From NCBI GenBank assembly GCA_002189035.1, contig NEEC01000010.1:1116001-1180000 (forward strand): a stretch of 64,000 nt of DNA, written 5' to 3'. The position numbers and the translations under genes were made by a program. The notes under the pieces were generated by a model. The model was given only the letters and a program-made list of their open reading frames with translations, was not told the origin of the DNA and made no database searches. Source of the DNA: Utricularia gibba (Eukaryota > Streptophyta > Magnoliopsida > Lamiales > Lentibulariaceae). Below, one piece after another: positions 6,010 to 62,090 of the stretch; positions within the stretch are counted from its first letter, which is position 1, and the number at the start of each line of letters is the position of its first letter.

Positions 6010-7455
6010 ATGTTCCCAGAACCCGCCGTACCATCATCGAATCTCTTGGCCTCGCAGCGCTCTTCATCGTTCTAGCCACGGTTGCGCTTTTCGCTAACGA
6101 CGGTGATCTCAATCAAAGAGCGCTTACTGGAGTTGCATCCAGGAGGAATGGTTCCGGCGGCGACCTCTTCTCCGGAAGATGGATTTTTGACGAGCGGTAT
6201 CGTCCGATGTACGACGAGAAGAGATGCTCCTTCATGGAGGCTACGTTCGCTTGTGAAACCTACGGGAGGAAGGATTTGAAGTATCAGCGATGGAGATGGG
6301 AGCCTCTTTCAAGCCATCTCCCAAGGTTAGTTTTCCGGTGTTCCGAACTTAGGAATTAGGATATGGGGTTCTTTAAATTATAAACTTTCTTAAAACTAGA
6401 AAGAAACAGAAACATATACCTGGTTTTCGGATCGAATCAATCGTGTATTGGAGCAGGTTCGATGGGGGCGCACTTTTGGAAAGACTGAGGGGGAAGAAGC
6501 TTCTCTTCGTGGGGGATTCAGTGAATAGGAATCAATGGGTTTCTTTGCTCTGTATGATGGAGTCCTCTCTTCCTGCGTCATCCAACAAAACAGTAGTTTC
6601 CGATGGGAGTCTGTACTCGTTCCATGACATGGTAGGCGAATTCAAGAGCTTCCTGCACCACATTTTTAGTACCTGCCTATGGATCTCGCTTTTCTCACGA
6701 AGGAGTACAAGACGACGATCGGATTCTACTGGTCACCGTTCCTCCTGGAATCCAACTGCGACGTCATGCGGAAGCATCGCCCCGAAGGGTGCGTGATCAG
6801 ATTCGGATCCATTGAGAAGCACGCAAGGCACTGGAACGATGCCGATTTCCTCATCTTCAACTCCCACACCTGGTGGCTTAGTCCATCCCTAACCTTCATG
6901 TACCACTACTACTACCAGGCACTCTTCTTGAAGGCCGCTTAGGCTTCTGAAATCATTTTCCTCCATTGGGTGCAGGTGGGGTTCTTTTGGAAGCCCCGAT
7001 GCGACGTACAAGCCGTTGAAGATGAAACGCCGTCGTTACGAGATGGCCCTGAACGCTTGGGCGACGTGGCTGGAGATCAACGTGAACAGAACCAAAACCA
7101 GACTCTTCTTCATGAGCCTCTCGCCATTTCTATTTACTAAGGATCCCAGGAGACACTGTTACAACAAAAGCAAGCCTCTCTTCGTCCCGGGCCAGCTGGG
7201 GAACCAGAGCATGATGCTTGCTGCGGGCGAGGCGATCAAGCAGCTTAGGGAGAGAGGCGTCCACGTCGAGTTTCTGCGGATAACGGAGATGTCCGAGTGC
7301 AGAGTGGATGCCCATCCGTCCGTTTTCCGGTATTTTTATCAGCCGTTGCCCGCTTCGAGGACCCGCTGCTGTACTCCGATTGCCTGCATTGGTGTCTCCC
7401 CGGAGTTCCGGATGTTTGGAATCAAATCCTCTACGCGTACATCATGAAGCCGTGA
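6010..7455 (+). CDS. TBL: Trichome birefringence-like (TBL) protein, two apparent 1-base deletions
   Basis: Member of the PMR5/Cas1p TBL family, Golgi type II membrane O-acetyltransferases acting on cell-wall polysaccharides such as xylan. Exons inferred: 6010-6325, 6457-6631, 6703-6872, 6976-7455; the second intron is only 71 bp. Seen: an N-terminal membrane segment ([20 protein letters not shown]), the TBL-domain start FSGRWIFDE, the esterase GDS motif in [24 protein letters not shown], and the C-terminal DxxH motif in [15 protein letters not shown]. The resemblance is to the TBL33/34/35 group. The reading frame has no ATG unless one base is added in CCC at 6022-6024, and the DxxH motif is reached only if one is added near CCC at 7349-7351. 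The usual SPTH..W stretch is replaced by SPFLFTKDP, so genuine decay cannot be excluded. About 380 residues if repaired. Confidence 0.85.
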
Positions 7456-7718
7456 TCAAAATGTAAGTGAGAGTGGACGGATTCCTGTTTTTGATACCGG
7501 CGACTTGGAATTTCGACGACGGCGGGGCTGGTTTCTGGTTTTTGATAGTGCTACCATGACTGTAATATTTCCGTGAGTTTCTGAAGTAAATTAGAATTTA
7601 AAAATATTTTTATCGTAGTTATTCACTTGAATAGGATTAGCTCGAGTGCTTCCGGCTCCGTCTTTTCTGTTGAACCCTACCGTCGCCCTGGCGGGCGGCG
7701 CGGCGCGGCGCTGACATC

Positions 7719-10700
7719 ATGGAGCAACGCCTCCTCTCTGAAATTGTCGGTTCGATCGATCGAAAAACGTTGCTCTCTTTGAACTCCAACGACGCAGTTC
7801 TTGCTCTAATCAGTAACCCATCCACTTCCGATTCAACTCTTTCGTCTCTGTTAGAAATCCTGGTACGCCACCTCCGAAACCCGGAATCTGATCACCAAAC
7901 TGTGGTTTCTTTGCTCTCTGCTCTCTGTAATTGTCATCCGGATCTTCGCCGTCGTGTCGTTGCCGTGGCCCTTGAATTCATTCGCCTCCCATGGTTACCG
8001 ATTCCCTTACTGCCCCATGTGCTCTCCCTTCTTGACCCGGCCGAATCTTCTGACTTTGACCCGTTTTCCGACGAGTCCCTGTTTCTCTCGCTCTGCTTCT
8101 GCCTCTCTGTGAAAACTAGAAGATGGGCTCTTACTAATATGAGTAGGTTCCGCATCAGGCAGTCTGTGTTTCTCACTGTGCTGTTGGGCTTTACTAAGGA
8201 TCCGTATCCGTCTATTAGGAAGTCGGCGTTAGATGCCTTGGTGAAGCTGAGAAACGATCTTGTCGTGGAGGACAGAAATTTGATCCAAGGTGGATATTTT
8301 CGTGCAGTTGAGCTTCTTTTTGATGCCGAAAAGTCTGTACGATGTTCAGCTGTTCATGTGGTTTGTGTTCTACATTTTGTTTCCCGAAAGAGTTGATATT
8401 AATCTTGCTAAGCCTTCTTCGTCTATGTGGGAAGGTGAATATCCCAATAACTGGTTATGCTTTCTTTTTTATCTTCAGGTTGGTGAGCTAGGAAGATTGG
8501 CTTACTCGCTGAGTCCTGAAGACAGTAAGGGAGAATGGTCTGATGCGTTGTTTCTACAGGTTTAATCTGATTCTTTTGCGAATAGTGTGGCACATATGGC
8601 CAGTCTCTTGATAATAGTTACCCGTTAGCCAGTTCAACTTTTTTTAGCATTGTTATTATCCATCTGCAGCTGAGTTTAATGGTAAGAGACATGGAAATGG
8701 AGATTAGGGTTGCTGCTTTTTGTGAACTAGGGAAGACTCCAACTGTGTCCAATGACATCCTTATGCAAACCTTGTCGAAGAGGTGCCTACCAGAGATTAA
8801 AGATAGAAGTTTTCATGGTCAATACACTGACAAGTTGTTTAAGATACCCGCTAGTGCTGCTGCGTACACGTTCGTTCATGGATTTGAGGACGAATTTCAT
8901 GAGGTAATTGCTGACTGTTACGTCTTAATGTCATTTCGATGATGAGATGTGATAAATAAGATCATCTTCTCATAAGGTCAGGAAATCTGCTTGCCATGCT
9001 ATGCAAATGCTAAGTGTTTCATCTGCTGAATTTGCTGCGCAAGCAGTGGATATAATGATGGATATGCTGAATGATGAATCGTTTGATGTACGTTCACAAT
9101 GTTTGGCAACTCTGCGTCATATTAATTTGCATAACCACTTCAAAATGAAAGAAGCCCACATAGAAATGGTATGCTTCTGATCCTGTGTAAGTTATGCAAT
9201 AATCTATGTGCAATTTTTTTCACTTTGTTAATTTGCTGCAGCTGTGTGTCACACTGGTTGATAACAATATGCTAGTGAGGTCTTCTGTCAGAGAAGTTCT
9301 CCGATTAAGTAGGCTTCCAAAGCTGGAAATGTTTAAAACATGTATTAACTCCTTCGTGGAGAACTTGGAACATTATCCGCAGGTACGTTTGCTTTGCAAG
9401 CCACTTATTGCTTATGTATGTGCAGATTTACTCATGGAAGTTCTTTACAAGGGAAAATGCAGGATGAAGCTGATATATTCAACACATTGTATAAAATGGG
9501 TTGTAACCATGGAAGATTTGTTTCCAAAATCATCCGAGAATTTTCTGAAGAGGTCAGTTTCACATATATCGCAGCATATGTTTTTTTCAGTGGTGCCTGT
9601 GTTGTAGGATTAGGTATGACATATCTTTGTTGAATCCACATGTTTGCAGCCGTGAAAAGTTTATTTCTTCATTGGGTAGAAGTTATCTTTAAAATATTGT
9701 CCAATTTTATATGGATGCAGCTAGAGCCTTCTTTTGATGGAACACTGCACTTGACTAAACCAAGAACAGTTTCATTATTAGTACTAGCGATATCAGCACC
9801 CGTGTCCTTGGATCGAAGGCTTAGCAGTATTCCTCCACAATTATTCTCATATGCTGTCACATTACTGGATAGAATATCCAATGGCCTTCGTGATGTTGCT
9901 GAGGAAACTAGCATTCTAGCATATCTGTCTCATTGTAGCAAATTCAATCTCGCCTCTGCTTCTGAAAATTTTGAAAGAGATGCAGTGTGTTTACCACTGG
10001 ATGGAAAATATGCTGACTCCAGTGACAGAGGTCGTGATCTCTATGGGCCAAATGAATTGGCAAAAGCAATGATCAAACCTGGCCATGATCATGCAGATTT
10101 GTGGATTGAAACTGCAAGCTGCACAGATTTTATTCTACAAAAAGCCGCTAGTTTATGGAAATTACTTAAACTTGGACTTGCTGAAGAAGTTCTTCAAACA
10201 TTAAGGTATCCTTCTATTGCTACAAAAACTGCACTTGAAATTTCATACTCCATATACAATTTCTGATGCATGCTTATATTTAGACATAATCCCAATCACT
10301 GGATGAATCTTCTAGATACTGGTCCATGTTGCGAAATGATAAACTGTTAGTTACATGAGCTGGAGGCATCCAGTTGTTACTGAAGTGATGGAAATTTGTT
10401 CCATGTGCAGGCTCTTTAAGGAAGAGCTGAGGAATACTTCTCGTGGTCCACACCACTCTGCTGCCGTTATCTTCACACTAAACATCTTATGTGTCATGAA
10501 GTTGCTGGCAAAGGGATCATCTGGATTGCAATTTTTTCGGTTTGATTCCAAAGCTGCTGGGACTCCAAGTGCCTTGTTGAAAGCGGAAATAAAACTGGAA
10601 GAGATGTTACATAGGTTTTCCGGGCTGCGGAAAGCTGAAAATCTGCATCTGGTGGAGCTAATGCTTGTGACTTGTGTACTGAGATTGTCTCACGGAGGGA

Positions 10701-11341
10701 ACTGTTCCTTGAGTGGCAGCATGAAAAAATTGAAGTCCCAATTGCACCGTGCAGAAGATCTGAGCGAAGGATCAGTTGGGCTTCCAAAGTTTGTGATTGA
10801 GCTTCGAAATATACTGTGGGATATTGACAACAACGATGAAGACATAATCATCGACAAGCTCCCTCAGCTTCGAAACTCTCTAGACCTCTTCTGGCTGAAA
10901 CCTTTTGCCATAACTGAAGAACTCAAATACCTGAGTGTAGAAGTCGATATTGTTGAAAATGAATACCATCGCCCTCTTCCTTTCGTTCCAGGCCTCCCTG
11001 TGGGCATTCCACTGGATATCACGCTGTGGAATATCCCTCCCGGAGCAAGATTATGGGTCTCTGCTTCTCTCGGAAGCAGACCAAGACAGTTAATTTTTCT
11101 GGATTTGGATGACTTCAAAGAATGCAGTGAAGCAAGGAAGTGTGTCTTCAATGCTCCATTCTTCTGCACACCTGATGTTAAGCGCTTCTCCTTGAAGGTG
11201 TCGATCGGCATGGAAGGGTCCTCTGAAGCTCCAGAAATGAGCAGCTTCTGCTCTGGACCCGAGCGGAAGCTCGTGTATCTTTGCAAGGAGAAGGAAGTGT
11301 TTTTGTCCAGAGCGAGGGATGAATGTAGTGCTAGTAAATAA
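7719..11341 (+). CDS. SIEL: SIEL / Integrator subunit 4-like ARM-repeat protein
   Basis: Homologue of Arabidopsis SIEL, an ARM/HEAT-repeat protein reported to bind SHORT-ROOT and related to metazoan Integrator subunit 4. Eight exons fit in frame: 7719-8360, 8479-8559, 8670-8903, 8977-9168, 9242-9382, 9463-9552, 9721-10205 and 10411-11341, giving 931 residues, close to the roughly 930-residue Arabidopsis protein. The first five introns are phase 0 and the last is phase 2. Helical repeats run through the middle, for example FTKDPYPSIRKSALDALVKL and VRKSACHAMQMLS. The C-terminal INTS4-type domain follows, with LPFVPGLPVGIPLDITLWN and RQLIFLDLDDF. The ATG at 7719 opens the first long exon. The frame is intact throughout, in contrast to the TBL gene 260 bases upstream. 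Assigned from family knowledge; nuclear and endosomal roles are inferred from the homologue. Confidence 0.9.
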
Positions 11342-14215
11342 TCCATATTCAAAATCTCGAGTGTTTTTTTTTTCCAGATGTAGGATTACAGTGGATTAGT
11401 GGGGTGCTTGGAGAATGATTAGCAGATGATCCTGGCAACCATTCGATCGATGGGTTGGTGTTCATTCTCCCGTGCTCCAGAAAATGCACGTGGCTGCATG
11501 ATCGAAAGTACATCAACTGCCATTTTTCGAGCACATTATCAGTAAAAGCAGCCGCCGGGAGCAACACAACCAGCGAAGCTGTGAGTGTGTGATGACCTGT
11601 GGAATGTGGAACAGTCAACACCAACTAAAACTTGTGTTTTTCTTTCTACGAACTGACATAATAAAAGTTTTCAATTAAGTTTGGGAGAATTAGAATAAAA
11701 AAATTATTTAATTCATTTGAATTTAAATAAATATAATATAAATCAATTATTTTTAAATCTTGAATTTATTTAAACTATAAATAAGATTAATATTAGATAC
11801 ATTTTTTAATATTTTTAACTTATGAAAATACTGTATTTTCTAATTAGGGGTTTTATTGCAAGTTATCAATGTTTTAATAATTTTACTAGTATTTATATTT
11901 TTATATCTAAAATTAGACAAAATAAATTGATAATTTCCTACATCTTAACAGCAAATATTTCCAACTTATCAAATCAATTTTTACAAGCAAATATTAAATG
12001 CAACACAAATTGGAGGGTATTGCGACTATAACAAAATCCATGAGTACCTTATAAAATATGGACGACTTCACCGTTGAGTCTGCGTGAAGGGAATTACATT
12101 TTCTCATTTAAGGGTCTTCTACTTTTTCCTTTTATACTTCCTAATGAACGAACCAACATATTTCCTTCCCAATAAATCAACTAAAGGAGGAGGTGATGGG
12201 TGCCCAAATGATTACGATTACAAAAAAAGATCTACATTTTTGGGAAACTCTTGCTCTACGTAAGAATGCGAGACTTTAATACTTTAAGAGTAATTGGTAT
12301 GAGTAGGAATATATCAGGTATTAAAATACATAATGGTAATCAATATAAATTTTTCTTGATACATTTTTTTCTCTTATTATAAATATGTCACCTCTTCTTA
12401 AATTTATTTTGATATTATGGATAAATTTATACCGATATAATGCATACATGTATTGTTACCAAGCACTGCTTAAAAGAAAACAAAAATACAGAAATTTAAT
12501 ATATTACTTGTGTCATAATTTTTTTTTTCAAAATATATGTTCCTTTTTTGGTTCATCAAAATATCTGTAATTTATTTTTTTTATTTTGAAAATACGTTAT
12601 TTTGAAATTAATATTTTGTACTTATTTTTTTTGTTGAAATGTATGCTATTGTATATTAAGATACATAATTAGTTTACTTGAAAATTATTGTTAATCAAAA
12701 AATTATTTTTACATATTAATTTTAGTAAAAAAGAAAAGAATAATAATTAAAAAAAACCTAAAATTATAATCTACACCATGAATTGGGATGAATAATAAAG
12801 ATTTGTCAATCTAAACCGGATCATATTTGTACTCACGGAGTATCAAAGAGCAAAAACTCGGATTATATTTTGAAAAGATAAAAGTTAGTGTGGCAAAATT
12901 GATTTAAACTCAAAACTCTTAATAAATCAAAATATTATCAAACCAAGTAGCAAACTAAGCTACTATAATACAACAATTATCAAGATATGAATGTTGTTTA
13001 CATATATGGTGTTGTTGTATACTGTTAACAATAAACTATGTAGACACAAAAAGATAGAATATAATTCATGTAATATATTTTTCAAAATAATAATTAAATC
13101 ATGAATATTCATTGAATCATTCAATTTAATTTTAATCATAAGTATTGTTGATTTTTCAGTATATGATCTAAAATGAGTCAAAATTTAATTAATCATGGTT
13201 TTTCATAATTATTTTTTAGTATTACAATTTATATGGGTATATTTTTTTTACATACATTTTCATTAATAGACAAACAAACATATATAAAATACATAATTTT
13301 AGTATTTGGTATCATTTTTAAATTTTTATGAATTAATATAAAAATAAATTACAACTGTTTTAAATTTATTTTCAGTTAAAATAATTCAATTTTCAAAGAA
13401 AAAACTACAGATATTTACTAATAATAAATCATGTAAAAAAAATACAAATATTTTAATAAGAATATAAGGTAATACAGGTATTTTTATAATAATAAAATAT
13501 TAACATGTAATTTGATAAAATAAATCTTTGACATAATCATTTGGATAAAAATGTCAGCAAAGGGATGTAATGATTGTTATTAAACATACTAAAAACAACT
13601 ACAAGAAACCTTTTTATAAGACATGATCACTTAGGTTTCAAAGTATGGAAACAAGATATTGTCTCAACCCATTTTATAAGACATGATCACTATGGATAAC
13701 CGATAGGCTTTGATCAAAGTAACCTGATGGGATTAATTATACTTATAACAACATATTGTTTCTCCTCACTTCCCAACACTATTACCTCAAAAACGATAAA
13801 GGTGCTATTCTTATTCCAAACTAACTACATGTCATGTGGGAATTATTGGAGTAATTTAGCAAACTCTTTTTCTTTTTTGTTTTTTGAGGAGGGTATTGAC
13901 CCATTATGACCCCCTTTTTTTGTTACGTTGATAGATATTTGTGTTATGTTCAAAAACAAAGATGTTACAATTTTTTATAAGGAAATTACTAAACATATGA
14001 CATCCAATCAGCAAATCTAGAAGTGATGTAACATAAGGTAGAAAAAGGGGGAGGGTCAGTGTGTTCTTTTTTCTTTTAATTATTTTTTTAGTTATTAATT
14101 TTTTTAACTTCAGACAAGATCACGTTTCCTCAACACTAATTTAACGAGTAAACAAATGTTTCAAATAAACACAATGACGTCACTGATTGTACAAAATATT
14201 CACCATCTCATCACA

Positions 14216-14437
14216 CTAATTATTCCATTCATTATTGGGTTCCAAGGCTGTAACAAAATCATTGTCCTTGGTCTCGACTTCTTCTTCATTCTCTATATTT
14301 TGTAGCATATCATCCAGGATGCATGGCTCAGGGTTCACATGCGCCGGAATAAAATACTGCAATAATGCACATGTTAGCATCATGTGGGTCTGCCTTTTCA
14401 GAGGAAGAAGCATGGTGACTAAAGGGCTCTTTTTCAT
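14216..14437 (-). mobile_element. PIF/Harbinger transposase C-terminal relic
   Basis: The minus strand reads a 73-residue fragment with PLKRQTHMMLTCALLQYFI followed by an acidic linker and ALEPNNEWNN. In PIF/Harbinger transposases (HARBI1 type) the C-terminus has the pattern PLKTQ..I..ACALLHNFI, then an acidic stretch and an EPSNEW motif, so order and spacing fit. The upstream catalytic region is not readable in any frame, so this is a dead fragment. No terminal inverted repeats were identified around it. Confidence 0.45.
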
Positions 14438-16137
14438 GACATTTCATGTTCTCTCAATAATTTTCTTACAAACTCTTGCCCGAGTCCATTAGTAGCCACG
14501 ACAAGTTTCGTCTTAAAATTCCAGATGACTTCGACAATATGTAATAATACGCATTCCAAGTGTGTGTTTTGGAACTAACACGAGGTGTTGCTCAAATATC
14601 TGAACGAGGGTACAACTTTTGCACCCAAGATTGCAAATCCATTTTTGTATTTCTAATAATCGGTAATAATTTATTTGAATATGGAAATCAAACATCTTTT
14701 TTCACTAGGAGTCCACCAAAAACATATATATATATTGCGTGCACAGAAAGCGTTTTTTGTTCCATAATAGGGTGGGAGCCAATCCAAACTGAACCCTGTC
14801 CAATGTAGGTTACAAAAAGGTTGATTGACAAAACCGAGACCATATTTTAAAATAAATAAATATCACACACTGAATTTTCAGCCACTAATAATTAAATTTA
14901 TAATAAAAAATATTGATTGAAAAATTATTTGTGGGATGGAGTTTGATGTTTTAAAATTATGTTATAAATCTCTCAATTTTTTTTAAACAATTTGTCTTTG
15001 AAATTATGAAATTATATATTTAACTCTTCATGTTATCAAAACTAATTAATTTTGATTCTAATACCATTATAACGGTGCATCATATGAGATGCAATATAAC
15101 CATCATCATTTTGAATTTTGAATCATATGAGACATGAATATAATATAACCATCATCATTTTGAATTATACAAGATACAAATACGATATAATCTTAATAGG
15201 AGTATCATTCGATTAATTGAACCTTAGACATGAATGTAAAAAGATCTAGTACGAAATTTTTTTGGGTTTGAAAACAAAGTTGAATATCTGAACTGATTCA
15301 TTTTTAAAAAATTTTGAAAACCGTTTGGATCTTTGTTGCATAGTTTTAACAATTTAAAAAGTCTTTTTTTGCAATTTTGAAACATAAGGATTAGATTGAT
15401 TGGAAGTGTTGCTCTTAGAATTTCTTATTATTTGTGCAATTTTGTCTTTAATATTATGGGCAATTGAGATTGTGAAAACCCGGTCTAGACACACGCTTTG
15501 GTGGATTCATGGAAAACCGACTTCCATAACAACGCTGCGACGCACTCTGGATGCTCATTTCTTGCAAGCTTCAGCTTCGGACATGGTGAGACTTGTAAGT
15601 GTTTGTGTTGTTATTGAAGCGTGCCAAAGTTTGGTGCCATACGACTAGTCACGGAGAGGAGAGGAGCATGTGGGATGCTTGGCTTCTTGCATCCTCTGTG
15701 AAGAAACTGCTTGGCTGGTCCGAATGCCTCCACGCCAAGACTGTGTCCTGGTCCACGCACTGGCTACCTCCAAAGATATGCGTAAATATCATTATTCCCG
15801 CGATATTGCGGGCGGGGCCCACTCCCCTTCCAACCAAAACTATATGTCATTTTTTAATTCTGCGTTTCTTGGAGGAATTTTAAACTTTCAAATTTTAAAT
15901 GAGTAACGTGAGCTGTAGTAGTTGTTGTGCTCGAGGTGTCCCATACGGCATGCAACTTGCTTCAAACTGTTGGTTCAAGTTCTTCAGTACAAAACAGGTA
16001 ACACACCTGCTACCCCTGTAGGCCTGGATTTGCATTGCCCCTACCTTTGGGATTATCATTTGTTTAAACTTAAATTTGCATTAGTTCAAGAAGGAGATGG
16101 GCATGTGAAACATTATATTATTCAATTTTAATGTGTT

Positions 16138-16310
16138 TTAAAAATACATTTATATTATAATATTAAATTGTATAATAATTTAATATATTAAACTTACAGT
16201 ATATATTTTATTTTGTTAAATATTATATTAAAATTTTATGTTATTTCATAAAACAGTTTTACAATCTAAAACTAATTATATTCTATATAATCTAAAACAC
16301 AACTTTTGAT
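16138..16310 (+). repeat. Copy A of an AT-rich dispersed repeat
   Basis: Contains a block beginning AAAAATACATTTATATTATA, a TTAAATTGTATAATAATTTA core, and later AACAGTTTTACAATCTAAAA. The same order of blocks recurs at 63345-63556 (same orientation) and, reverse-complemented, at 46750-46915, at roughly 85-90 percent identity over the first 50 bases by eye. Confidence 0.55.
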
Positions 16311-16656
16311 AATATCAATTAGGGTTTGCAAAAACATGTAAGCGGCTAACCGCGTTCACTTTATTGGGTAATGGCCACTGTAAGTATAGCATTAACAGCC
16401 TAATAATGCAGGAGGGAGAAGGTTAAGGACAAAAAGATTCCCTTAATAATGCTAATGACCATCCACCGAGTTGACTTACACACGCTTACCGTGAAATTGG
16501 TGGCCCTTGGAGCAAGAGACAAAAAATGAAATAAGAAATTGGGAAAAATCTGAGCAGAATCCTCTTGTCTTTATAAACCAAAGTTCAATCATGTTCTCAC
16601 TGAGTTTTTTTTTTTTTTTTGTTATTTTTTTTGTTTATGATTCCTTGAAAACTCCG

Positions 16657-18690: not shown

Positions 18691-18699
18691 TTTTTCATT

Positions 18700-22868: not shown

Positions 22869-24142
<1,274 letters not shown>

Positions 24143-24993: not shown

Positions 24994-26278
24994 ATGGCTG
25001 TCGGAGCATCGTCTTTCAAGTTCCCTTGCAGTTGCTCTCTTTCTTCATCTCTTTCCTACGGCGCTAACCGCCTCCTTCCCCGGCAGATCAAGATCGCGTT
25101 CCGCCAGCCCACATTGTTCAGTAAGCGGATTTTTTGTTCTTTCGCCTAATTGATTGATGTGATTTCTCGTCGCTTTATTTTACTTTGCTCTCGAATTCGT
25201 TTTAGAAATATATGCAATTACCAGCAATGATATCAAGGTGGGACTCAACATCGAAGTAGATGGAAGTCCTTGGAGGGTTCTTGGTAAGTTGTTCCTGCTC
25301 TTTTGGTAGCCCGCGAAACTGGAACTGTTACAAAGGAAAATGTGATAACTGATATGGGTTTTTCCATTTTCTGGGATTTTATTTAGAGTTCCTCCACGTG
25401 AAACCTGGAAAGGGGGCTGCGTTTGTTAGGACAACCCTGAAGAATTATGTGACCGGAAATCAGGTTGAGAAAACATTCAGAGCTGGAAGTAAGGTAAATA
25501 TTCCAATTTTTCTGGTTTTAGGGCACATATTTAGCTATATGATTTTACAGCACAGAATTCCCTTGATTTTTTTTGCCATATAAGTAGTTTTGGTGCTACC
25601 TGAGGTTCCAGAGTACTTTTGACAGATAGAAGAGGCTGATATATTTAAGGAGACTAAGCAATTTACATACAAAGATGGTGCACAGTATGTCTTCATGGAC
25701 TTGGTTAGTAGTGATTACTTTTCCATATTTTTTCGAACTGTTTACAGTAAGAATACGATTACCTGTGGTTCAGACTTCATACGAAGAATATCGACTCAAT
25801 GAGGCTGATGTTGGGGATAAATCCAAGTGGTTGAAAGAAGGCATGGACTGCAACTTGCTATTTTGGAAGAGGAAGGTTACCACTCCTAAAGCTTCTGCAA
25901 TTGAGTAATCTTTTTTCATGGCCTAATTCTGGAACTGCGGCGTTAAGTCTAAATGTTCACATTGAAAACAGGTCATCGACTTTGAACTCCCCATCGTTGT
26001 GAAGTTAAAAGTGGTTGGAGTTGATCCTGGTCTAAGGGGTGACACTGCTCAAGGTAACAATTGTGTTGCTAGAGGAAAATCTCAGCAGGGAACAGGATTT
26101 GAGAACAATTTCACGAATGTTTACCATGGCTTTCATTCAACTGCTTGTTTTCATACGCAGGGGGTCTAAGCCGGCGACACTCGACACCGGAGCGGTAGTC
26201 ACAGTCCCACTGTTCATAGAGAATGGGGAAGAAGTTTTGGTTGATACTAGAACTGGTCAGTACATGAGCCGTGCATAG
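24994..26278 (+). CDS. EFP: Plastid translation elongation factor P with a 1-base deficit
   Basis: EF-P eases ribosome stalling at proline stretches; this copy is nuclear-encoded and plastid-targeted. Exons: 24994-25120, 25206-25283, 25387-25493, 25626-25703, 25774-25875, 25972-26053, 26161-26278. The N-terminus ([20 protein letters not shown]...) is a Ser-rich transit peptide of about 40 residues. The mature part has [11 protein letters not shown], the loop lysine in [13 protein letters not shown], then the central and C-terminal OB-like domains ([54 protein letters not shown]). Exon lengths sum to 692 nt. The join of exon 6 (ending with one base of a Gly codon) to exon 7 needs five G after the acceptor AG, but four are present (26161-26164). 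One missing G restores GGSKPAT and gives 230 residues. All other junctions are in phase. Confidence 0.92.
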
Positions 26279-35503: not shown

Positions 35504-38500
35504 TCACGCCACAGGCGCCTCGCTGTTGTTATCCAGTGGCATGTACTGCGACATGATGGCGCGGATCTCCGAGTCCATGTACATCTGCACACAACACCCA
35601 CATTAGTGAGGGGGCAGTGTGTGCGAGTGCCAACTCCACACAAAGAGTTGCGTTCCACTTCGAATCCAAAAGAGAGTAGCAGTTACATAGCTTGTGACCA
35701 TTAGGAAAATCAGTTTCAAGCAATGCAAAAGACCACTTCCGGTCGTCAAGTTCAACAAAAACTCTTGCTTGCTTCATGTTTCCCAGAATATCACAACGCA
35801 TCAGGTCACGAGATGGAAGGCTTACCCGGATTCGGTACTTGTAAAGGCCGTATCCCACAACTCCGGCCAGCATCAAAGACACTACCACCACCCAGAAAAA
35901 GCTCCATGCATTTACCGGCCTACCTTTACCTGTAACTTTCTCAAGATACAAGAGTAAGGAGGTGCAAGATGCTCACAGCTGGTTTTCTTAGTATGACTAA
36001 ACACAATTTTGCTAGCACCTGACAACAAAATCTCTGTATCTGACACTCATTTCCCTCAAAATCAGTCTAAAATGAATCATAGAAAAAGTCAAAACACATC
36101 TTTTTCCTAACCTGGAAATGGTTTTTAAGTCGATGAATTACCCCAGTGAGGATGAAAGGAATTTTTTGTGAGGAAAATGAATTTCGTAATTCTAATATAT
36201 TGTATCCATCACCCTTCTCGAAAGTAAGATGTGCTTACCAATACATGTGTCGTGTTCCTGTATGTACAGTAAGTTATTACTGCAACTGCAGTCATAACCT
36301 CCCCAAGTGTTCTTGCAGTTGCATTCTGGACACTGGCACGCCAGCTTCTCCTTGCATTCGTCGATGTCTGGACAGAAGAAAATCAAGTTATTGAAGCAAG
36401 TTACTCATGAATTCTTGAGTTGACACAGTGCATCTAATGCTTATGCTTACAATCCCATTGACTGAAACTTAGAATTATTCAGGGTTCTCAATGCTATATT
36501 TCATTTTCCAGTGGTAAGATGATTCACATGAGAGTTGATACCTTCACAGTTGTTCACTCCATCACCCTTGAACCCAGGGGGCACTGGCAGCCATTGGTAA
36601 CGGAATTCTGAAAACATTTGTGTCAGTGAACGAGCCAGGGGAGCACACTTTGTTTTTTCCCTTTTGCTAATATTGTGAGTACAAGAATTTCAATGCATTC
36701 CATCTCTTTTAACACAACTGTGGATAATCTGCCAATAAACCTCTCTATGAAACTTGAGAAAAGTAGGATAGTGCTTGCAACTTACATGACATGCAGAAAA
36801 GGTCCATCCACCCTTCGATCCAATCCAACAGCCTCCATTGTTGATTTCACATCTCAATACACCAGAAGCTACAGAAAAAAAAAGAGAGAGAGAACATTTT
36901 AGGATCTAAGAGAAAGGTTGACATATGTCTCATACAGGACTGGTTTTACATGTAGAGTACTGCTTTAATGCCAGTTTTAGCCATCTTACTAAAAAATTCT
37001 CCCATTCTTGACATTGTAACAGTTCGTTGATCGAACTAATTCATAAAAGCAATGGAGAAAACAAAGATCACCTTCACAGTGGGTGTAACCATCACCCACA
37101 AACTTCACACCATGCACAGTAGGACACTCGCACACCCTTCCTCGGAAGGTGTCCTAAAATGTCAATAGCTATAAGATAAAACTCAGTGGCCAAAGGGTAA
37201 CATGAATACAAAGTAAAAGAAATACCCTGCAAGCAGTAACATTATGAGAGGCATCTTGCCAACATCCACCGTTATTTTCCAAGCATTCGTTTGTTTCCAT
37301 GTCTGTACAGGATCAATGGGTAAAAAAGAACATGATGTAGGATCCTCTAATACGTTGTCACAGGGAAGTTGCACACACTTGTACGTATATGCGGCTTGAG
37401 AAAAATAAAAGGTACTCAGATTAAATTTACCACTAGTCAAACATACATCAGGTTCTGTTGACTCTTCGAAACCTGAGCATATAGCCCTGAGAACCGCTCC
37501 CTTGTCCAACTTTCCTGAGCAGATGAATACTGTTTACATCTATTTGTCTAGAAGAGAAGAATTTGATTTGATGAAAGTGTCTACCTCGGTACTGTCTGTT
37601 GTTTATCAGAAGGGTTGGCAACATAGTAACATCACCTCGTGATCCTTTCCCTACCTAAGTATACGAGAACTCCTCGTTCAGAATAGATTGCAGCCTAAAA
37701 GGGAAGCTCCAAGTCCCAAATCATGAATTTCAAAGTCATAGAACCTGTGATTCTTGTTCTTGCTTTAGAACTGGATTATCAGCATCCGCATCAGTGTCGC
37801 CTATGCATTCATCAATCTGCTTAACATCAAAACCTGAAGAAAAGCAAGAGCGAACAAGCATAAATGTCAGTAAAAAAAAAGAATTACATGTGGTGCAGAC
37901 AGAAAAATGGCTCCAAAACCAAATGCAAGCACCTATGGCCTAATAACTGAGGTGGTAAAAAGCATCACATAAGACAGCAACACCAAAATAAAATAACCCA
38001 CCAAGAGACCCAATTATTTCATCCGCACATTCCTTTGTATACTTCTTCTCCTTCATTCGGCATCGGATTGAGAAATCTGTCACATAGTCCCACCACTGCC
38101 AAGGTTTACCACTTTCATTTGCTATCTTAAAAAAGCAGGCTTGACGTAGATTTTGCACCACAACATCCTTCCCATCATATCCTTTATTGAAATCTTGCTC
38201 AGGGTCTGGTGCACAGTACCTTCCATGGTTGATGCACTGTGACTTACATTGTGTACTCAACAGAAATGACTCAGGACAATACCAAGTAATGTAATGAGGA
38301 GTAAACTGGGTGTAGCCCTTCTTCTCAAGTATCTGGGCAGCTCCTCTGAAACTATGGATGAAATCTAACTGGCTTTCGCATTTGGAACCACATTCATCGT
38401 TAGAATTTGTCCAAAATTCATATTCGACCCTCTCATCCGGATGTGGAAGTGATTCCTTCCAATCAAGACCAACATTGACGATTTCCCCATTAGAAAGTGC

Positions 38501-39339
38501 TTTTTTCATTTTGTCCCCAAGTTCCTTGGTTATCAGCACTGAAGGGATAGTAATGTCCTTCACGTAATCAGCCTTTGTATCCTCTTCCTCAGGCGTGTCC
38601 ATGGTAATAAGAAGCTCAAATTTATCATCAGCCACAAGAATGGCTGCAGCTCCGCCATTCTGAGCATTCCATGCCTTTAATGTAAAGTAACATTCTGCCA
38701 GACAATTAATCAACATGATAAGGTTATTACACTCAACAGTAACAAAAGTCCATTCTCATTCAAACAAGGCCATGAATCAAGAACCCACATTTATAGTTGT
38801 TACTAGTAAGTGTTTATTTCTTTTTTTCATCAAGAATCCACATTCCCAAATCCAGTACACAACACCTGCGGGAATAAAACCATCCATTTCTCTAGTAACA
38901 TTGCCATTGAATCATTCACCATGCCTAGTTTGAAATTATATACAATCTATAGTTATGTCAACAGTAGCACCCACGAGATTCTCCATTTTCTGCAAATTAG
39001 CCACCAAAAACAGGGTATGTGAACTAAGAAAGTGACACACTTACCCCCTCGATCAACAAGAAGGAAAATCGGGACCCCGGCACGTTTACCCTTGAAGGAA
39101 AAATTAGCATTTTGAAATTTTTGGCAACCCTTTTGATTTGATTTCGGGTAGTAGACTGACCCAACCATCGTTCCTCCATATTTAGGAACCCCAAAATTTC
39201 CAATTGATGCTTCAAACACGCCACTCACTGACTCTGGAGAAGTCACCTTCAAACTATTCTTCTCCACTACAAACCTTCCGAAACAAGCTCCAAACAGCAT
39301 AAACCATATAACGTTGAACCCTTTAAACCTCCGGCTCAT
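35504..39339 (-). CDS. VSR: Vacuolar sorting receptor with a 1-base deficit in an EGF exon
   Basis: Type I receptor that carries soluble cargo with NPIR-like signals to the vacuole via the trans-Golgi and prevacuolar compartment. Twelve exons, reading down: 39045-39339, 38002-38694, 37745-37833, 37585-37654, 37431-37514, 37226-37302, 37072-37153, 36786-36868, 36542-36607, 36239-36367, 35826-35929, 35504-35584. Seen: a signal peptide; [17 protein letters not shown]; the protease-associated domain ([19 protein letters not shown]); [42 protein letters not shown]-like repeats ([36 protein letters not shown]); a transmembrane helix; and a cytosolic tail with the tyrosine sorting motif YMPL. Exon lengths total 1853 nt, one short. 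Exon 9 needs six C but has five (plus-strand G run 36577-36581) to read [16 protein letters not shown]. About 617 residues when complete. Confidence 0.95.
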
Positions 39340-53377: not shown

Positions 53378-53914
53378 TCAGGAGGAACTAGCTGCTACGC
53401 TGCGCATCATATCCTTGAACTCCACGAAATCCACCCGCCCATCGTGATTCCTATCAACGGAAGAGATCATCATCTCCACCCGCTCCATCTCCCCTCCTTC
53501 GCTCAGCCCCAGCTTCTCCAGCACCGTCTGCAGCTCCCTCGCCGATATGAATCCATCCCCGTCCTCGTCAAACACCTTGAACGCCTCGCACAGATCGGAT
53601 TCATCCGCCTCGGAGTCACCCGCCACCGACGCCTCGAAGAACAACTCCCCCAACGACCGGTGCAGCGCCGCGAAATCCTCGTACGTCAGGCCCTCGTTCC
53701 CAGGGTGGATGTAGGTCACCACCATGGACTCCATCTCCGATGGGTTGGAGTCCAGGCCGAGGAGGCCGAGGGCTTGCCGGAGCTCGTCTATGCTGATCAC
53801 GTTGTCGTGGTTTCTGTCGAAGAGGTCGAAGATGCGGCGGAGGCGGACGGAGTTCAAGCTGGGGCTCCGGAGGCGGAAAGAAGCTCCGGTGGACATCTTG
53901 ATTTGCTGCTCCAT
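53378..53914 (-). CDS. CML: Calmodulin-like protein, CML42/43 type
   Basis: Intronless 178-residue EF-hand calcium sensor. After MEQQIKMSTGASFRLRSPSLNSVRL, a signature start of CML42/43, come EF-hand 1 (DLFDRNHDNVISIDEL), a degenerate second hand in the region of YIHPGNEGLTYEDF, EF-hand 3 (VFDEDGDGFISAREL) and EF-hand 4 (SVDRNHDGRVDFVEF). Three loops retain acidic residues at positions 1, 3, 5 and 12, so three calcium sites are expected. The ATG at 53914 is chosen because homology begins there; the same frame runs upstream to 54031 with other ATGs, but that extension looks unlike the family. Coding GC content is far above the flanks. A long GC-driven open frame on the opposite strand is a shadow. 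In Arabidopsis, CML42 is linked to trichome branching and herbivory signalling. Confidence 0.94.
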   Translation of the reverse strand: MEQQIKMSTGASFRLRSPSLNSVRLRRIFDLFDRNHDNVISIDELRQALGLLGLDSNPSEMESMVVTYIHPGNEGLTYEDFAALHRSLGELFFEASVAGDSEADESDLCEAFKVFDEDGDGFISARELQTVLEKLGLSEGGEMERVEMMISSVDRNHDGRVDFVEFKDMMRSVAASSS

Positions 53915-56900
53915 TGGCAACCAAGTGTTCGTCGGAACCTCATGGTTAAGAGGAAGGACACTAAATATAGACACGGCGGGTAATGCGCAGTCAATGACGC
54001 GTGGGAGGTGCATATTTCGTACGGTCAACATCTTTCATTAAAATACAAGTAAAAAATTACTAATTATTTATTCAAATGGTATCATATTTATCCATATTAT
54101 TCAAAATTCATGTAGAATCAATTACCAATTTTTGAAAAAAACCACAAAATCAAAGAGCCCAACACGTCATTTTCAAATGGTATAAATCAATTATAATAAC
54201 GTTAAAAACATTAAAGATTAATTTTATCGAATACATCAAACTTTAGAGACTAAACATGTTCGATTTACCTCAAAAGCAAGTGAAAGTTCAAGTATTATCC
54301 AATGGTTTGACACCATGTTCTATTGAGAATTTGATTTACATAACTTTAATACACCTACAAAATACCATAAAAAAGAAATCCTAACTTCACTCCTGGAAAG
54401 AAAAGTTTAAACCTTAAAAATTGTGTTATATAAAATTTTTGGGTTCTATTTTTATTTCTGTTTTTATCAAAAATAATTTTGCATAGAACAATTATTATTT
54501 ATGTTTTTTTTTTACAAAAAATAATTTTTGGATATAGTTAAAATGAGGTAAAATTAAAAATAAAAAAACAACTACTACTATTTCTTATTTATATTTTTTT
54601 CATCATATTCCCAAAAAAGAACATTCAAAAACTTCTACTTCTACAAGTTTTTTAAAAACATGTTATTTCTATTTTTAAGTTTTCAAAAAATGTCTACTTC
54701 TAATCTTATTTGTTAAAAGTAGAAACAAAATTAAAAAAAATTTTCAGAAAATTCTTTAAAAGCAAGTTTGCGCAATTGCGTTGTTTTGATTTTTTTTTTA
54801 CGCATTTAATCAGATTCATAGAATGCTTTTAAACTAGAACATAGTCAACGTTTTTTTAATATTTTTAAATGATAAATTTATTTCTATAATAAATTATTGT
54901 ATGTATTACAAGAATAATTAATTATCCACCGTCCCTGGAAAAGTATTCTGAAAGTAATTTTAAAAGAGATGTTCTAGAAGGATAGAATATTTAGTTAGAC
55001 AAAAGAATTTTGATTATAAGGTTTGGAATGAGTGGGTTGTCGCAACGCGCCTTGGTCAACTTTTTTTTTTTTCTTTTTCTCTGAGGTGCGAGGACCCGAC
55101 TCGGTCGGGTCCTGTCCGCCAATGGCCTCTCTCTCGGGGCGAAGACTGGACTTATTGGGACGGACCCACACTGACCCGAACCATTGTGGGCCCACAGGTC
55201 TAGATCCGGTTGACCCGATATTGTCACGGGTATTTGGTCATGTTCTGTATGTGATAAGCTTGCAAATTACATGTACTTTTTATAGGACCTGAGCAAGAAA
55301 TGTTGATGATGAAACATTCTCATTAGAGAAATTCTGAGTATAAATTGTTCATAAAAGTATCTCATTAAATAGACAATTTATTGACAATAAATTTCTTTGA
55401 AAAAGAAGATTTCTTTTTGCGAAAAAAAGTATAAAGTGCAAAGTATACAAGAAGGATTAATCGTGTAATAAGAACTGGAGAGTAAGCACCCTACAAGCAT
55501 TGTTAAGATAAAGAAGGACCGAACAGAAGGTGCTCGAATAAAATCTCACCTTGATGAGTGCCCAAAAAATAATCCCTAGGGTGTCGAAAATCTAGGGAAG
55601 ACTCTTAACATAAGATGAATTGAGGGAGAAAATATTCAGATTTGTAGGGTGATTAGAGTCAGGGTTAGTCTGGAGCCGATCAACACCTGTTTGCACAAGA
55701 CTCAAGAATAGGAGCTTGAACCCTAAGACTAAAGATATGATTGGAAAATCAATTCAAAATTGATTTTAATACTTAAATTACATATTTATTTATATTTAAT
55801 CATAATTATATTTTATAAATTTATAATTTGAAATTTTTTTTGTATATCATTTATCCTATAAAAATATTGTATGATTTTTAAATTATAATTTGTGCTATTA
55901 GTTTAATTTCAATATTTTTGTATTAAATTTATAATTTAGAAATTAAAGTAATTAAATTATTTATAATAGATCAATTATAATTATTTATAAAAAGTATGAT
56001 TGTAATTTTAATTTTAAAATCAATTTTTTGAAAATCAATTCTAATAGAGAATCAATTATTTCATACTATTTATATAAATAAAATAATTTTCAAAAATTAA
56101 TTCTCACATAATAGAATTCAATATGAAGCTAGAATCAAAATTGATTTTGAAATAGAATTAATTCTGATGATTTCCAACGTTATCTAAACCTTTGAGTATT
56201 AAAGAGTAATTAAGAAATCTATTCACTGTATAAATACCTTTTTAAAAATCTACCCATCCTTCAAAAATTTTTAGAAAAGTATTCATTTTCTTCTATTTTC
56301 TTAAATGTTTAATTGAAGACAAAAAAATTTTGATTCCCAAGGAATAGAACTGGAAATATCCTAAATTCATTTATAACATTTGATTCAATATATGAATGTA
56401 ATTTATTGATTTTAATATAATTTGAATAAAAATTCATTTTTCCCCTTAAATTAAATACTACTTTATGGTTTGAATTTTGAATTTCTTTTGTTCAATTCCT
56501 AACATATTGTATAGTTTAAATTACTATCAAATAAATCTATTCCTAAAAAAATATCCTAACTATCGCTATTTTATAGAGTCAGTTTGATTATACTAAAGTT
56601 CATACTTTATAAATATTTAAAATTATTTTAATCTAATTATATTATAAATTTTTAATAGCATGTAATTAAAAAAAATAAAATGGTTATGATTCTAAATGAT
56701 TGAAAAGGATGGGTAGTTGTTTAAGTAATTAAGAGGAATTGGTAAATTTCTAATTGAATGTTTGATTGATTACGATACATGAGTGTTTTATAAAATTATT
56801 GTAAAATACTATGAATTAAGTAATTCAAAACTCATTTTTTAGAGATAAGTTTTGCTAAAACACGCTATAAAAAGTTACTATAAATGTACCATGTAAGTTG

Positions 56901-57703
56901 ACTTTCCAAATATAAATAAATTTTAAAAAAATTGAATTTTATTTCATAAAATTCAACCAGAAAATCCAAGTAAAATATAAAATGATTTCAAATTATATAA
57001 ATTTATTGTTTACAAAATCTAACAAAATAAAAATCAAAGTTTTTGTAATTATCATGTATTTTTACAATAGCTTTTTTTTACATTAAACATAAATAAATAC
57101 AGTTTTTTCTTTAAGTTTGGATCTGTTTTTTTAAAAAAAAAATAAAGGTGAAATACATGCACATTGACGTTTTAACAAAAGTGCGTGTATTTTCAGAAGT
57201 TTTAAAAAATCACATGTATTTTCTAAATCTACAGCAATAATACATGTAGCGAATTTTTTAGTACGATACATCACACGCGCATGGCACAACTCGCTCACAT
57301 GACACGTATAAAGCACGCGCCTTCTCGCTTTCTCTCTGTCTCCTCAGTATACTTCCCAACCGTTGTTTCCACTCTCGCTCTCTCTGTTTCAGGATTCGTC
57401 CCAACGGTTGTTTTGTTTCCACTCTCTCTCTCTATCTCCTCGTCTTCTCCTTGTTGCTTCTCTGTTAAAATAAATACCGCGGCCCGCCCCTTCCTTATCG
57501 GTCCTACTTTTTCCTCTCCTCTGTTCTTCTCTCTGTTTTTCCATCAAACGGCGATCTGGGGGAAGACATGGAGAGGAGACGTTGACTGCGCTTGCCCCGC
57601 GTTTTGCTGTACGATAGAAAATTGGTTATCCAAGACGGAGGAAGGATTGCATTTCAAAGATTAGTGTTTTGTGTTGCTTTTTTGGACGTGGGATTTTCGG
57701 ATA
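53915..57703. other. AT-rich spacer, then leader of ceramide glucosyltransferase
   Basis: AT-rich, gene-free DNA to about 57260, broken by a GC-rich island at 55080-55240 with a perfect short palindrome (55092-55112). From 57260 a CT-rich promoter/leader of the downstream gene begins, with a 45-bp imperfect direct repeat (CCCAAC...TTTCCACTCTC at 57355 and 57400) and a TATA-like AAATAAATA near 57467. Confidence 0.5.
55092..55112. repeat. Perfect inverted repeat in a GC-rich island
   Basis: Arms GGACCCGAC and GTCGGGTCC, nine bases each, with loop TCG. It lies inside a roughly 160-bp GC-rich block surrounded by very AT-rich DNA. No gene is attached. It may be a relic of a transposon end or simply a stable hairpin. 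Confidence 0.5.
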
Positions 57704-60700
57704 ATGGAAATGTGGTCATTGGATTCGTTGGATGGGTTATTGTTTGCCGCTAGCAGAGTTTGTAGCAGTCCTCTCGCCTTATTCATTCAGATCCAGGTAT
57801 TTGCTCACGGTTGAACTGTGGAAATAGGGAATGCAGTAGCTGTAGGCTGGAGAAGTGGCTGGAATTGAATTTTACTGGCTGTCCGCTGAATTGACAGATT
57901 TGTTGCGTTGGATTGTATTCAGATTTGACATTAACTCAAAATAGGATGTAAAATTATTGTATTTGGTTTTTAGTGTACCGGTAGGGGGTTGCTTTAGGGT
58001 TTTTTGTGTGACTTGTCAACGAGTTGACGTTGTTTTCTGGTTTCAGGGTTTTGTAATTTGCTTGTTTCTAGCCCTTGGGTGGGCTTTGGCTTCTCATGTC
58101 AGGTGTCGAGCCTTTTTTCGTTTTCAGTTCATATGGTGGTAACAAATGTTGTTAGCCTTTATCAGTTACTTTGTGAAATGAACAGGAGTAAAGAGATACG
58201 AAGAATAAAAGAGAATATGAGAAGAGGCAATAGCTTTGCTTTTCTGTATCCTGATGTTAATGACCTCGAACACACTACACAGGCCAAATTGCCAATGGTG
58301 TCAGTTGTGATGCCCCTGAAAGGTTTCGGTGAACATAATCTTCATAACTGGAGAAGTCAGGTAGATTATCTATCATTTGTTTCCTCTGGAAGAATGAAAT
58401 GGGATTCATAAAGTTTATTCTTTGCAGTTGAGATCTAACTATTTGTTCGCTGCAGATTACCTCCTTATATGGTGGGTCCCTGGAGTTTCTTTTTGTTGTT
58501 GAGAGCAATGAAGACCCTGCTTACGTTGCAGTCTCTCGATTGTTGAAGGAATATGAGGTTTCCTTCCGCCGTCATATTTTTAAATCATATGATTGATAAG
58601 GATGTCAGCACAATCTCCTCTTGGCTTTTTGCATCTGCCGTCTCTGAATATAATCTATGGCTTTTGTTTAGAGATTACATCCAGTTTTTTGGTTATTTCT
58701 TGGAGTTTATAACCTGGGATTGATATTTTCTGTTAACTACTTTAATTTACGCAGGATACAGTTGATGCCAAAATTATAATTGCTGGCCTATCAACAACAT
58801 GTAGTCAAAAGATTCATAATCAGTTGGTATGATCTGGTTTCGAGCATTTTGTAAATGATAATGATTCAACACAATAATACATGAACGAATTTACATGATT
58901 ATTATATATTGGCTAGGTTGGCGTAGAGAAAATGCACAAGGATAGCAAGTATGTGTTATTTCTAGATGATGATGTCAGGCTGCATCCTGGATCTATTGGA
59001 GCTCTCACGGCTGAAATGATGAAGAACCCAGATGTAGGCTGTTATAATTTATTTTTATTGTGAGACGGCATTATTTTTCTTTTTTTTATGGAAAATTTCA
59101 TGATTGATGTGCTTGATGTTCTTTTCTGCACAAATTTCTGCAGATATTTATTCAAACAGGGTATCCTCTTGATTTACCTTCGGGGAGTTTAGGCAGTTAC
59201 TGCATATATGAGTATCATATGGTATGCCAATGCTGATCCCTCACCTAATAAGAATAAGATGGCCATACTCTCTGCAACACACGTTGAACTCTAAGCAGAT
59301 TGTCAAATGTTTCACTGAGAAAAAAACTTGCATTATATTAATTTGCTCCATTTATGTAGAAGTTTTTCAAGCTTTTGTGCTGTCGTGCCCATATTCTCGA
59401 TCTACATATATTTATGGTTAATGGTTTGCATTTTCTTGACCGTGTAGCCCTGTTCAATGGGATTCGCTACTGGTGGAAAAACATTCTTTTTATGGGGGGA
59501 TGCATGATGGTAAGCATTTGGTGCTGCTAGTAAGTCCGTTGCTTTTCAGACTTCCTTAATTTTGTCATTCCCTTTATTTCAGATGCATGCCGATGATTTT
59601 AGAACGGATCATCATGGTGTTGTCTCACAACTTCGAGATGGTGGTTATTCAGATGACATGACTCTTGCAGCGATTGCAAGTAATGTTTCAATCTCATGAT
59701 TCTGAGATCCATCAACAACTTGTGTTCCTGTTAGAGGACTCTCAATCGTGGCTGTGGATGAATTCATTTCTGATACTGTTCTTTACAGGCGCTCACAAGC
59801 GACTCATCACATCACCTCCAGTCGCTGTATTTCCTCACCCACTTGCCAGTGATCTTAGCTTTGGCAGGTTCTGTCTTTGTTGCCCAGTCTTTATCTTCAC
59901 TAGGCCATGAGATGTAATTTTTTATCACATGCCTTGGCATTCTGAACGGATTCTGTGAATGAAGGTACTGGAATTATTTAAGGAAGCAAACATTTGTTCT
60001 GGAATCGTACACATCAAAAGTTAACTGGATTATGAACCGAGCATTATTCTCTTCCCACTGCTACTTGTCATGGGGATTCTCCATGCCATACGTCATTTCT
60101 GCCATAAATGTTGCAGCAGCACTGAGACTTTACTACAAAGGCTACCCGTATGGTGAAGATGCAGCTTTGCGATGGCCTGGTTAGTTAGTCTATACAGTTT
60201 TTTTTCCTCCAAATACCCCCTTCTTCCATCATGCTTTGAATACTATGGACTCACTCTTAGTTATAACTTTGTGTTATAGAATAAAGTAGCAGACACAAAC
60301 ACCCTTAACAAGCCAAATTTCGGCCACTCTTCTTGGTCGCAGGTCTGTCAACAGCTGCTTGTCATTTAGTATGTACAGTAATCGAACTTCTTTCCATGTG
60401 GAATTTGACAAGAGTGGAGGTTCATCTCTGCAACTTGCTTTCCCCAGAAGCATCTCCACTATCTCTCGCTTCCTACAACTGGTGTCTTGTTAGTACATCC
60501 TTTTTATGTCTTCCTTCTGCAGACCTTTTGACTTCATAAAATTGTTATCCCATATTCTTTTTATTTATGAACAGGTGTTTATTGCCATGCTGGTTGACAA
60601 CTTCCTGTATCCAATATCAGCTTTTAGATCACATTTTTCTCAGTCCATCAATTGGTCCGGCATCAGGTATCATTTAAAGAACGGGAAAATCTACAAGGTA

Positions 60701-60967
60701 CAGTTTTTCCAAAATCTCCTGATGTTCCTTTACTTCGCTACAAGAAATAACAACATCAATAGTGACATCTCGAGCTTGCAATATAAGAATGAATCTCTTA
60801 TGATTTTTCGACAGATCGAAAGAAGCAAGGGTAAGGGTCCCAAGTTCACGGATCTGGGTGGTAAGCATCTGTATGGGAAGAAAGGTTCACCCAACCACTA
60901 TTCCTTTCTTAAATCTTTATCTAAAACCTTTGGCCAATGGCGGCAACCCAAGAAGTATGACGTATAG
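57704..60967 (+). CDS. GCS: Ceramide glucosyltransferase with a 1-base deficit
   Basis: Homologue of plant glucosylceramide synthase (Arabidopsis At2g19880, GT21-type), an ER membrane enzyme transferring glucose from UDP-glucose to ceramide. Fourteen exons: 57704-57796, 58047-58102, 58186-58360, 58456-58557, 58755-58826, 58917-59033, 59144-59221, 59448-59509, 59583-59679, 59789-59867, 59965-60179, 60343-60488, 60575-60697, 60815-60967. Seen: an N-terminal membrane helix (FVICLFLALGWALA), VVMPLKGFGEHNLHNWRSQ, FLDDDVRLHPGSIGALT with the metal-binding acidic residues, the MHADDF region, LRDGGYSDDMTLA, RYWNYLRKQTFVLES, C-terminal membrane segments and the tail WRQPKKYDV. Exons total 1568 nt, one short. 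Exon 8 has six G (59494-59499) where WGGCMM needs seven. Repaired length is 522 residues, against about 520 in Arabidopsis. Confidence 0.95.
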
Positions 60968-61480
60968 AGTCGGATTGTAGTAACCAGCACCAGCATCTTC
61001 ATACATTTTATGATTCTTTCTCCTCCCTGGGTTCGAACAATCGGTTGCAAGAACGCCAGGTCCTGACATTCTGTAGGGCCACTCTGGTCGGTGTGATCTG
61101 AGCTTCCTTTCATTCTTTTTCTGACTGTTGGTTGATTCCAAATAACTTCATCAGTTTGTTGGCTGATTCATCATGTATTTGTGTTGTTGTTTTGTAATCT
61201 TCTGGGGCTGTTTTGTTCATCTCAGATGCTCCTATGACTGCAGCCAGCTTGTCCAAGGTTAGTGCACTTGGTAATAATCTTACTTGCAAGAAGACTATAT
61301 GGTCTATGGCTGCCTGTCATTGGATCTTATTTCCCATGCTCATGATAATATGCATACATGAGGTGGTTGTCTGATGCATCTGTTTGATCTTATTAGTCAC
61401 GTTTGGAGTGATTGGTGGCCTTTTTTTTATTTACCACGTGAGGGTAATCAATTCGTAAACAATCAAGCAGTAGAATAGGA
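60968..61480. other. Convergent 3' region
   Basis: 513 bases between the stops of ceramide glucosyltransferase (+) and the DREB gene (-). Likely both 3' UTRs; no further gene is seen. Confidence 0.6.
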
Positions 61481-62090
61481 TTAGACAAGGTCAGGATCTT
61501 CGCTTAGGAAGTCACAAGCCACAAGCGGCGACTGATCGGAGTATTCCCATGCTTCGTCCATTGCTAGTTCAAACTCTTCCAGGCATCCTCCCAGCTTCGG
61601 CAGCTCGACTATCTCCTGAAGATCCTCCGGGGCCGCCGAGGACAATTCACAACTCAAAGAAGAGGAGGAAGAGGGTAACGGGGAACCCCGGCGAGGATTA
61701 TGTAACTGCTGATGATCCAGCATGGCAGCCTTCGCGGCGGCGGCCTGTACATCCTGCGGAAACTGCGTCGCGGGGCGGGGAGAAGGTCTGAGATTTGGGG
61801 GAAGTTGAGGACGGCGGCGCTGCCTTTCAGAGCCAGCGCCGCCACATCATGCGCACGCGCCGCCATCTCTGCGGTGGCGAAGGTCCCCAGCCAGATCCTT
61901 GATTTCTTCTTGGGCTCCCTGATTTCGGATACCCATTTGCCCCATGCCCGCATTCTGACACCTCGGTAGGCCACACCCTTCCACCGCCGTCCCCGCCTTT
62001 AGTAGATCTCTTCGATTTATTATTCCTCCACGCACCGCCGTCACTCTCTCTACGCCTCTTCTCGGAGCAGGAGCCCGGCGGCTCAGCCAT
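61481..62090 (-). CDS. AP2/ERF transcription factor, DREB subgroup III, with two 1-base deficits
   Basis: Intronless AP2/ERF nuclear factor of about 203 residues when repaired. Seen: a basic N-terminus ([15 protein letters not shown]), a complete AP2 domain ([54 protein letters not shown]) with the Val-14 typical of DREBs, a linker [14 protein letters not shown], and a C-terminal acidic region with [11 protein letters not shown], a motif of TINY/ERF034-044-like DREBs. The gene is read in three frames. The first break lies between the N-terminal Gly-rich stretch and the AP2 domain (about 61974-62000), the second at the G run 61777-61780, where one more base gives [14 protein letters not shown]. 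The span is 610 nt, exactly two short of a codon multiple. ATG 62090 is preferred to an in-frame ATG at 62156 because the TATA box lies only about 25 bases upstream of the latter. Confidence 0.9.

Follow-up and report, generated by a model that had tools for sequence, protein, structure and literature searches.

Among the 64,000 nucleotides of contig C304 analysed here as the window (positions 1116001-1180000; assembly G000, 100.09 Mb in 516 contigs), six genes have broken reading frames, which raises the question of whether these genes are decaying in the plant or have been damaged in the assembly. The initial annotation had described each of them as one base short of a codon multiple, or two bases in the case of TBL and DREB. 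When the exons were rebuilt from the sequence and their lengths summed, the same remainders were obtained for all six gene models (Table 1): the sums are 956 for the peroxidase, 692 for EF-P, 1814 for the vacuolar sorting receptor (VSR) and 1472 for the glucosyltransferase (GCS), each 2 mod 3 and one base short, as well as 1168 for TBL and 610 for DREB, each 1 mod 3 and two bases short. All introns checked in EF-P, the peroxidase and the glucosyltransferase have GT-AG borders, and the VSR model begins at an internal in-frame ATG, further in-frame ATGs upstream leaving the remainder as it is. For the gene at 58133..60967, the detailed name ceramide glucosyltransferase is our assumption. Nine other genes had been listed as frame-intact, and the part of this claim covered by our check, i.e., RPS4, a Polyketide_cyc2 gene that we take to be PYL, an LRR kinase, a second kinase, an EF-hand gene and an INTS4-like gene, was borne out by open exons and Pfam matches.

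Table 1. Broken genes of the window and the places of their frame switches, in window coordinates.
Feature	Position	Strand	Details
TBL (PC-esterase/PMR5N)	6010..7455	+	exons 6010-6325, 6457-6631, 6703-6899, 6976-7455
TBL, putative switch near start codon	6013..6030	+	two C3 runs in interval; weakest site
TBL, exon 4 switch, C3	7349..7351	+	L014 alignment, flank scores 69 and 78
Class III peroxidase	22869..24142	+	4 exons; Pfam peroxidase and peanut peroxidase 1sch
Peroxidase switch	23855..23872	+	C4 run 23855-23858
EF-P, bacterial type	24994..26278	+	7 exons; EFP_N, EFP, Elong-fact-P_C
EF-P phase break, G5	26160..26164	+	on last splice acceptor
Vacuolar sorting receptor (VSR)	35504..39300	-	12 exons; VSR_TRX and PA strong
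VSR switch, C5	36577..36581	-	inside EGF-like exon
Ceramide glucosyltransferase-like gene	58133..60967	+	12 exons; Glyco_transf_21 barely above cut-off
Glucosyltransferase switch, G6	59494..59499	+	exon reading
AP2/DREB-type single-exon gene	61481..62090	-	610 bases; AP2 match in middle frame
DREB switch 1, Gly-rich stretch with G4	61974..61997	-	approximate location
DREB switch 2, two C4 runs	61772..61780	-	approximate location

In agreement with the initial annotation, no insertion is present in the window, eight of eight frame switches in the six genes being net -1, and each switch could be placed in a G/C run of three to six bases or in the glycine-rich stretch of DREB. All eight can be placed at G/C despite the fact that A/T runs of at least four bases are the commoner ones: in the coding sample of the window (13,709 bases), homopolymers of at least four make up 3.1% of coding bases for A/T and 2.0% for G/C. 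The claim that no A/T run is needed holds for the window and fails genome-wide, where one shift in the HSP90 gene L009 falls at a T4 run.

Seven of the window switches were located by eye in three-frame reading, supported by Pfam or PDB matches on at least one side, while the one at 7349 in TBL is the sole switch in the window located by scored alignment, with the paralogue L014. In the peroxidase, EF-P and TBL, family matches in different frames flank the break on both sides. Residues 1-202 of peanut peroxidase 1sch match the frame upstream of the peroxidase break and residues 206-294 the frame downstream of it, and in EF-P the EFP_N and EFP domains lie before the break and Elong-fact-P_C after it. 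Past the break in VSR, the EGF_CA and cEGF matches are below their cut-offs; in the glucosyltransferase, the Glyco_transf_21 match lies upstream of the break, just over the cut-off, and no Pfam match was found downstream of it. The two DREB switches are located only roughly because there is no close reference outside AP2. A weaker site is the switch near the TBL start codon, which is suggested by a downstream frame devoid of an ATG before the first helix and by the paralogue L042, which starts at the matching place. The frame also changes at the TBL introns 6632-6702 and 6900-6975, neither of which is a lesion; the possibility of a frameshift at the latter was ruled out, as this phase-2 intron recurs in the paralogue L014. 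Before the first TBL intron (6290-6325), a serine takes the place of the cysteine found in the motif WQPDSCDLPR of L014 and L042.

A cause lying in the consensus predicts that the lesion recurs in the best-conserved genes elsewhere in the assembly. The assembly was therefore searched with family profiles exon by exon, a frameshift showing up as two touching matches in different frames, and split matches were chosen by eye from the family-search tables. Three of seven places with long HSP70 exons are broken, namely those on C451, C496 and C304:2235823 (the latter counted once together with its near-identical copy on C241), and those on C98, C409, C4 and C304:2243138 are whole. Of the five long HSP90 places, two are broken, C451 once and C255 twice, and the remaining three, one on C321 and two on C1, are intact. 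In addition, one actin exon on C1 is broken. Inspection by eye of 33 histone matches and 40 GTP_EFTU matches revealed no such break. Altogether, the lesion affects HSP70, HSP90, actin, TBL and UGT genes as well as a single sugar transporter gene, spread over many contigs, and proved to be genome-wide and blind to gene function. Apart from the break, the broken exons proved complete when aligned to intact paralogues. Two of the broken HSP70 exons are identical to the intact paralogue in 525/546 and 514/546 residues, a further HSP70 exon in 188/190 and an HSP90 exon in 475/494; a third HSP70 type has 355/540 residues in common with the same reference and its intact neighbour 355/539.

These genes bear directly on the next best explanation, according to which the broken genes are real pseudogenes of recent origin, bases having been lost through slippage at G/C runs in a genome subject to deletion pressure. 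The small size of the genome would be in keeping with such a process, which we nevertheless regard as very unlikely: it would require five of 12 long HSP70/HSP90 places to be dead at once, and low dN and dN/dS on both sides indicate that coding constraint continues past the breaks. Relative to the intact paralogue, HSP70 L002 has a dN of 0.022 upstream and 0.012 downstream of the break; the corresponding values are 0.023 and 0.031 in HSP90 L008, 0.068 and 0 (24 codons) in the actin exon and 0.005 and 0 (25 codons) in L043. In HSP70 L003, dN is 0.026 before and 0.054 after the break, about twice the upstream value and a point against a consensus error; in the other loci the downstream value is lower or similar. 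HSP90 L009 is more diverged, its three segments having 0.128, 0.065 and 0.084. Where computable, dN/dS is 0-0.03, dS being saturated in several segments, and the broken exons of HSP70, HSP90 and actin have no stop codon along their alignment paths. Mixed indels and stop codons, which had been named in advance as the marks of random pseudogenisation, are thus not what HSP70, HSP90 and actin exhibit. The degenerate tubulin fragment L025 (C1:5059560-5059980), which has stops and a different frame change, may give an idea of how true pseudogenes appear in this genome.

On the other hand, one break is common to two near-identical HSP70 copies, as pseudogenes would allow. The 31-kb contig C241 (L004) duplicates part of the HSP70 cluster on C304 (L005, C304:2234801-2244800) at 99.5% identity, and the HSP70 copies on both contigs have a common frame break at G5. 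Judged from the sequences, this would be expected both from a repeated systematic error and from a real inherited deletion.

For the sign and run context of the shifts, loci were aligned to paralogues from the same genome as references, with gains and losses penalised equally. The aligned loci comprised HSP70, HSP90 and actin, relatives of TBL and UGT, a sugar transporter and 16 UGT loci whose open frames are short; they were chosen for split matches or short frames, a choice that leaves sign and context unaffected and affects the rate. The C304 site of the HSP70 cluster, repeated on C241, was counted once, and the tubulin fragment was kept outside the counts. The same applies to L022, which has a poor reference and gave a -1 at C5 by eye and two +1 steps by alignment. 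L012, L015 and L046 were left out, as were L075 and L076 (too short as references). Over all loci, 55 shifts were placed by alignment, of which 33 had flank scores of at least 10 on both sides and 21 scores of at least 20, one of the latter being the TBL site of the window. All 21 well-flanked shifts are net -1 (sign p 1e-6). At the looser threshold, 30 of 33 are net -1 and three net +1 (L021, L060, L062), and the 22 shifts dropped below it comprise 16 net -1 and six net +1, several of them beside introns or in divergent loops.

A G/C run of at least three bases is touched by 18 of the 21 well-flanked shifts, compared with 19.6% for random places in the same sequences (p 1e-10), and an A/T run of at least three by three of the 21 (null 24.7%); when the looser threshold is applied, G/C runs of this length are touched by 26 of the 30 net -1 shifts (null 23.6%). 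Given the T-run site in L009, the G/C bias is strong and not absolute. Both properties argue against real pseudogenes. Insertions are absent among the well-flanked sites, and in coding sequence A/T runs of at least four bases outnumber G/C runs (97 vs. 66 in the window sample and also 114 vs. 30), so that ordinary slippage should strike A/T runs too.

In the UGT survey, the best 16 of 26 matches with open frames of fewer than 280 residues were aligned to references that are 29-47% identical (one 62%). At the looser threshold, nine of these 16 loci have net -1 shifts, two have only +1 (L060, L062) and five have none. Stops occur on the aligned path in six of the 16 and reflect introns or real decay; they are a point in favour of pseudogenes, and real decay may be mixed in among the UGT loci concerned. 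Of the 138 candidates for PF00083, nine were scored and supplied one further case (L063).

Across the 12 long places of HSP70 and HSP90, which together hold roughly 19 kb of exon sequence, six sites were counted, giving a lesion rate of about 0.3 per kb. In the window, eight sites fall within 13.7 kb of sampled coding sequence, and as this sample contains all of the broken genes and only part of the intact ones, the true rate in the window is lower.

A consensus error predicts spread through the assembly to genes that can hardly be dead, a single sign, G/C runs and intact constraint. All four were found, the spread being genome-wide, and they support the systematic consensus error that the initial annotation had put forward. 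The eight lesions in the window are thus very probably consensus errors left behind in an assembly of noisy long reads, and the presence of the same lesion in the most conserved genes of the assembly makes consensus errors, not dead genes, almost certain. As far as can be judged from sequence comparison, the genes are most likely intact in the plant. Either most reads or the consensus model would call one base too few at short G/C homopolymers, and the undercalled bases would be left uncorrected by accurate short reads; the platform and the polishing step are those that we infer from the pattern.

Errors of this type have been described for PacBio data. In an assembly with a 2.9-Mb chromosome made with HGAP_3 and Quiver, 561 single-base homopolymer deletions were reported, about 0.2 per kb (PMC4888979), 1,046 one-base homopolymer indels were corrected in an E. 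coli genome after HGAP2 and Quiver (PMC6180223), and one-base indels in homopolymer tracts were likewise corrected in another study (PMC6602927). According to a review, U. gibba was assembled with HGAP at 88x (PMC5793159). As far as the relevant parts of these accounts go, the lesions described here resemble the PacBio HGAP/Quiver errors in being one-base losses in homopolymers (PMC4888979) or one-base indels (PMC6180223, PMC6602927), and their density is of the same order of magnitude. They differ in that no G/C preference is stated in those parts, whereas it is strong in the coding sequences of the present assembly, for which the same platform is presumed. The evidence therefore supports, indirectly, that the broken genes of the window represent an assembly artefact of an already known kind that extends genome-wide. 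Taken at face value, the assembly would make chaperone and actin genes appear dead, exaggerate gene loss and suggest a spurious deletion bias in a plant genome of small size, and claims of gene loss or deletion bias made from it need correction with short reads or HiFi data first.

Less likely still than real pseudogenes are real alleles, in which case the assembly would at some sites have taken a frameshift allele that is heterozygous or in the minority. This could apply to any single site, and near-identical copies with indels do exist, but a single sign and a G/C context over unrelated genes would be left unexplained. Restoration of the frames in the cell, by programmed frameshifting, transcriptional slippage or insertional RNA editing, is highly implausible: the lesions of the window are all of one sign and at or near runs, as it would have them, but the intact reference paralogues (L001, L006, L011, L045) read straight through the break places, the sites are not conserved, the near-identical copies on C241 and C304 with one break site common to both being the exception, and no common sequence signal beyond the run was noticed by eye. 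That the bases are truly absent and that the plant adds single G or C residues at runs post-transcriptionally, by insertional editing or slippage, is barely credible; such frame repair would make many nuclear housekeeping genes cryptic.

With regard to near-identical copies as replicates, no second copy of window positions 58900-62200, i.e., the glucosyltransferase and DREB region, was found in the assembly, which contains only partial DREB relatives at 73-79%, and neither the C142 pair nor C460/C304 gave an alignment of 300 bases at 97%. L030 (C127:26601-32500) and L031 (C112:1-6000), each on a contig about 35 kb long, duplicate L029 (C2:4879001-4889000) at 98-99% identity. As replicates they were rejected, since all four bases are involved in their indels, in either direction, and the polarity is indeterminable. 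The three comparisons with C2 are unusually indel-rich, with 36 gap openings to 55 mismatches, A/T included; C112 and C127 are perhaps low-coverage haplotigs, and their indels of all bases point to an error profile broader than G/C in some parts of the assembly. The inverted GTP_EFTU gene copies L034 and L035 (C304:2314001-2320600) agree over 1,624 bases without a mismatch and, being identical, were uninformative as replicates. Four EF1A-like gene copies of 98.6-99.9% identity are present in both orientations within 13 kb on C1 (L032, L033; C1:2665001-2678200).
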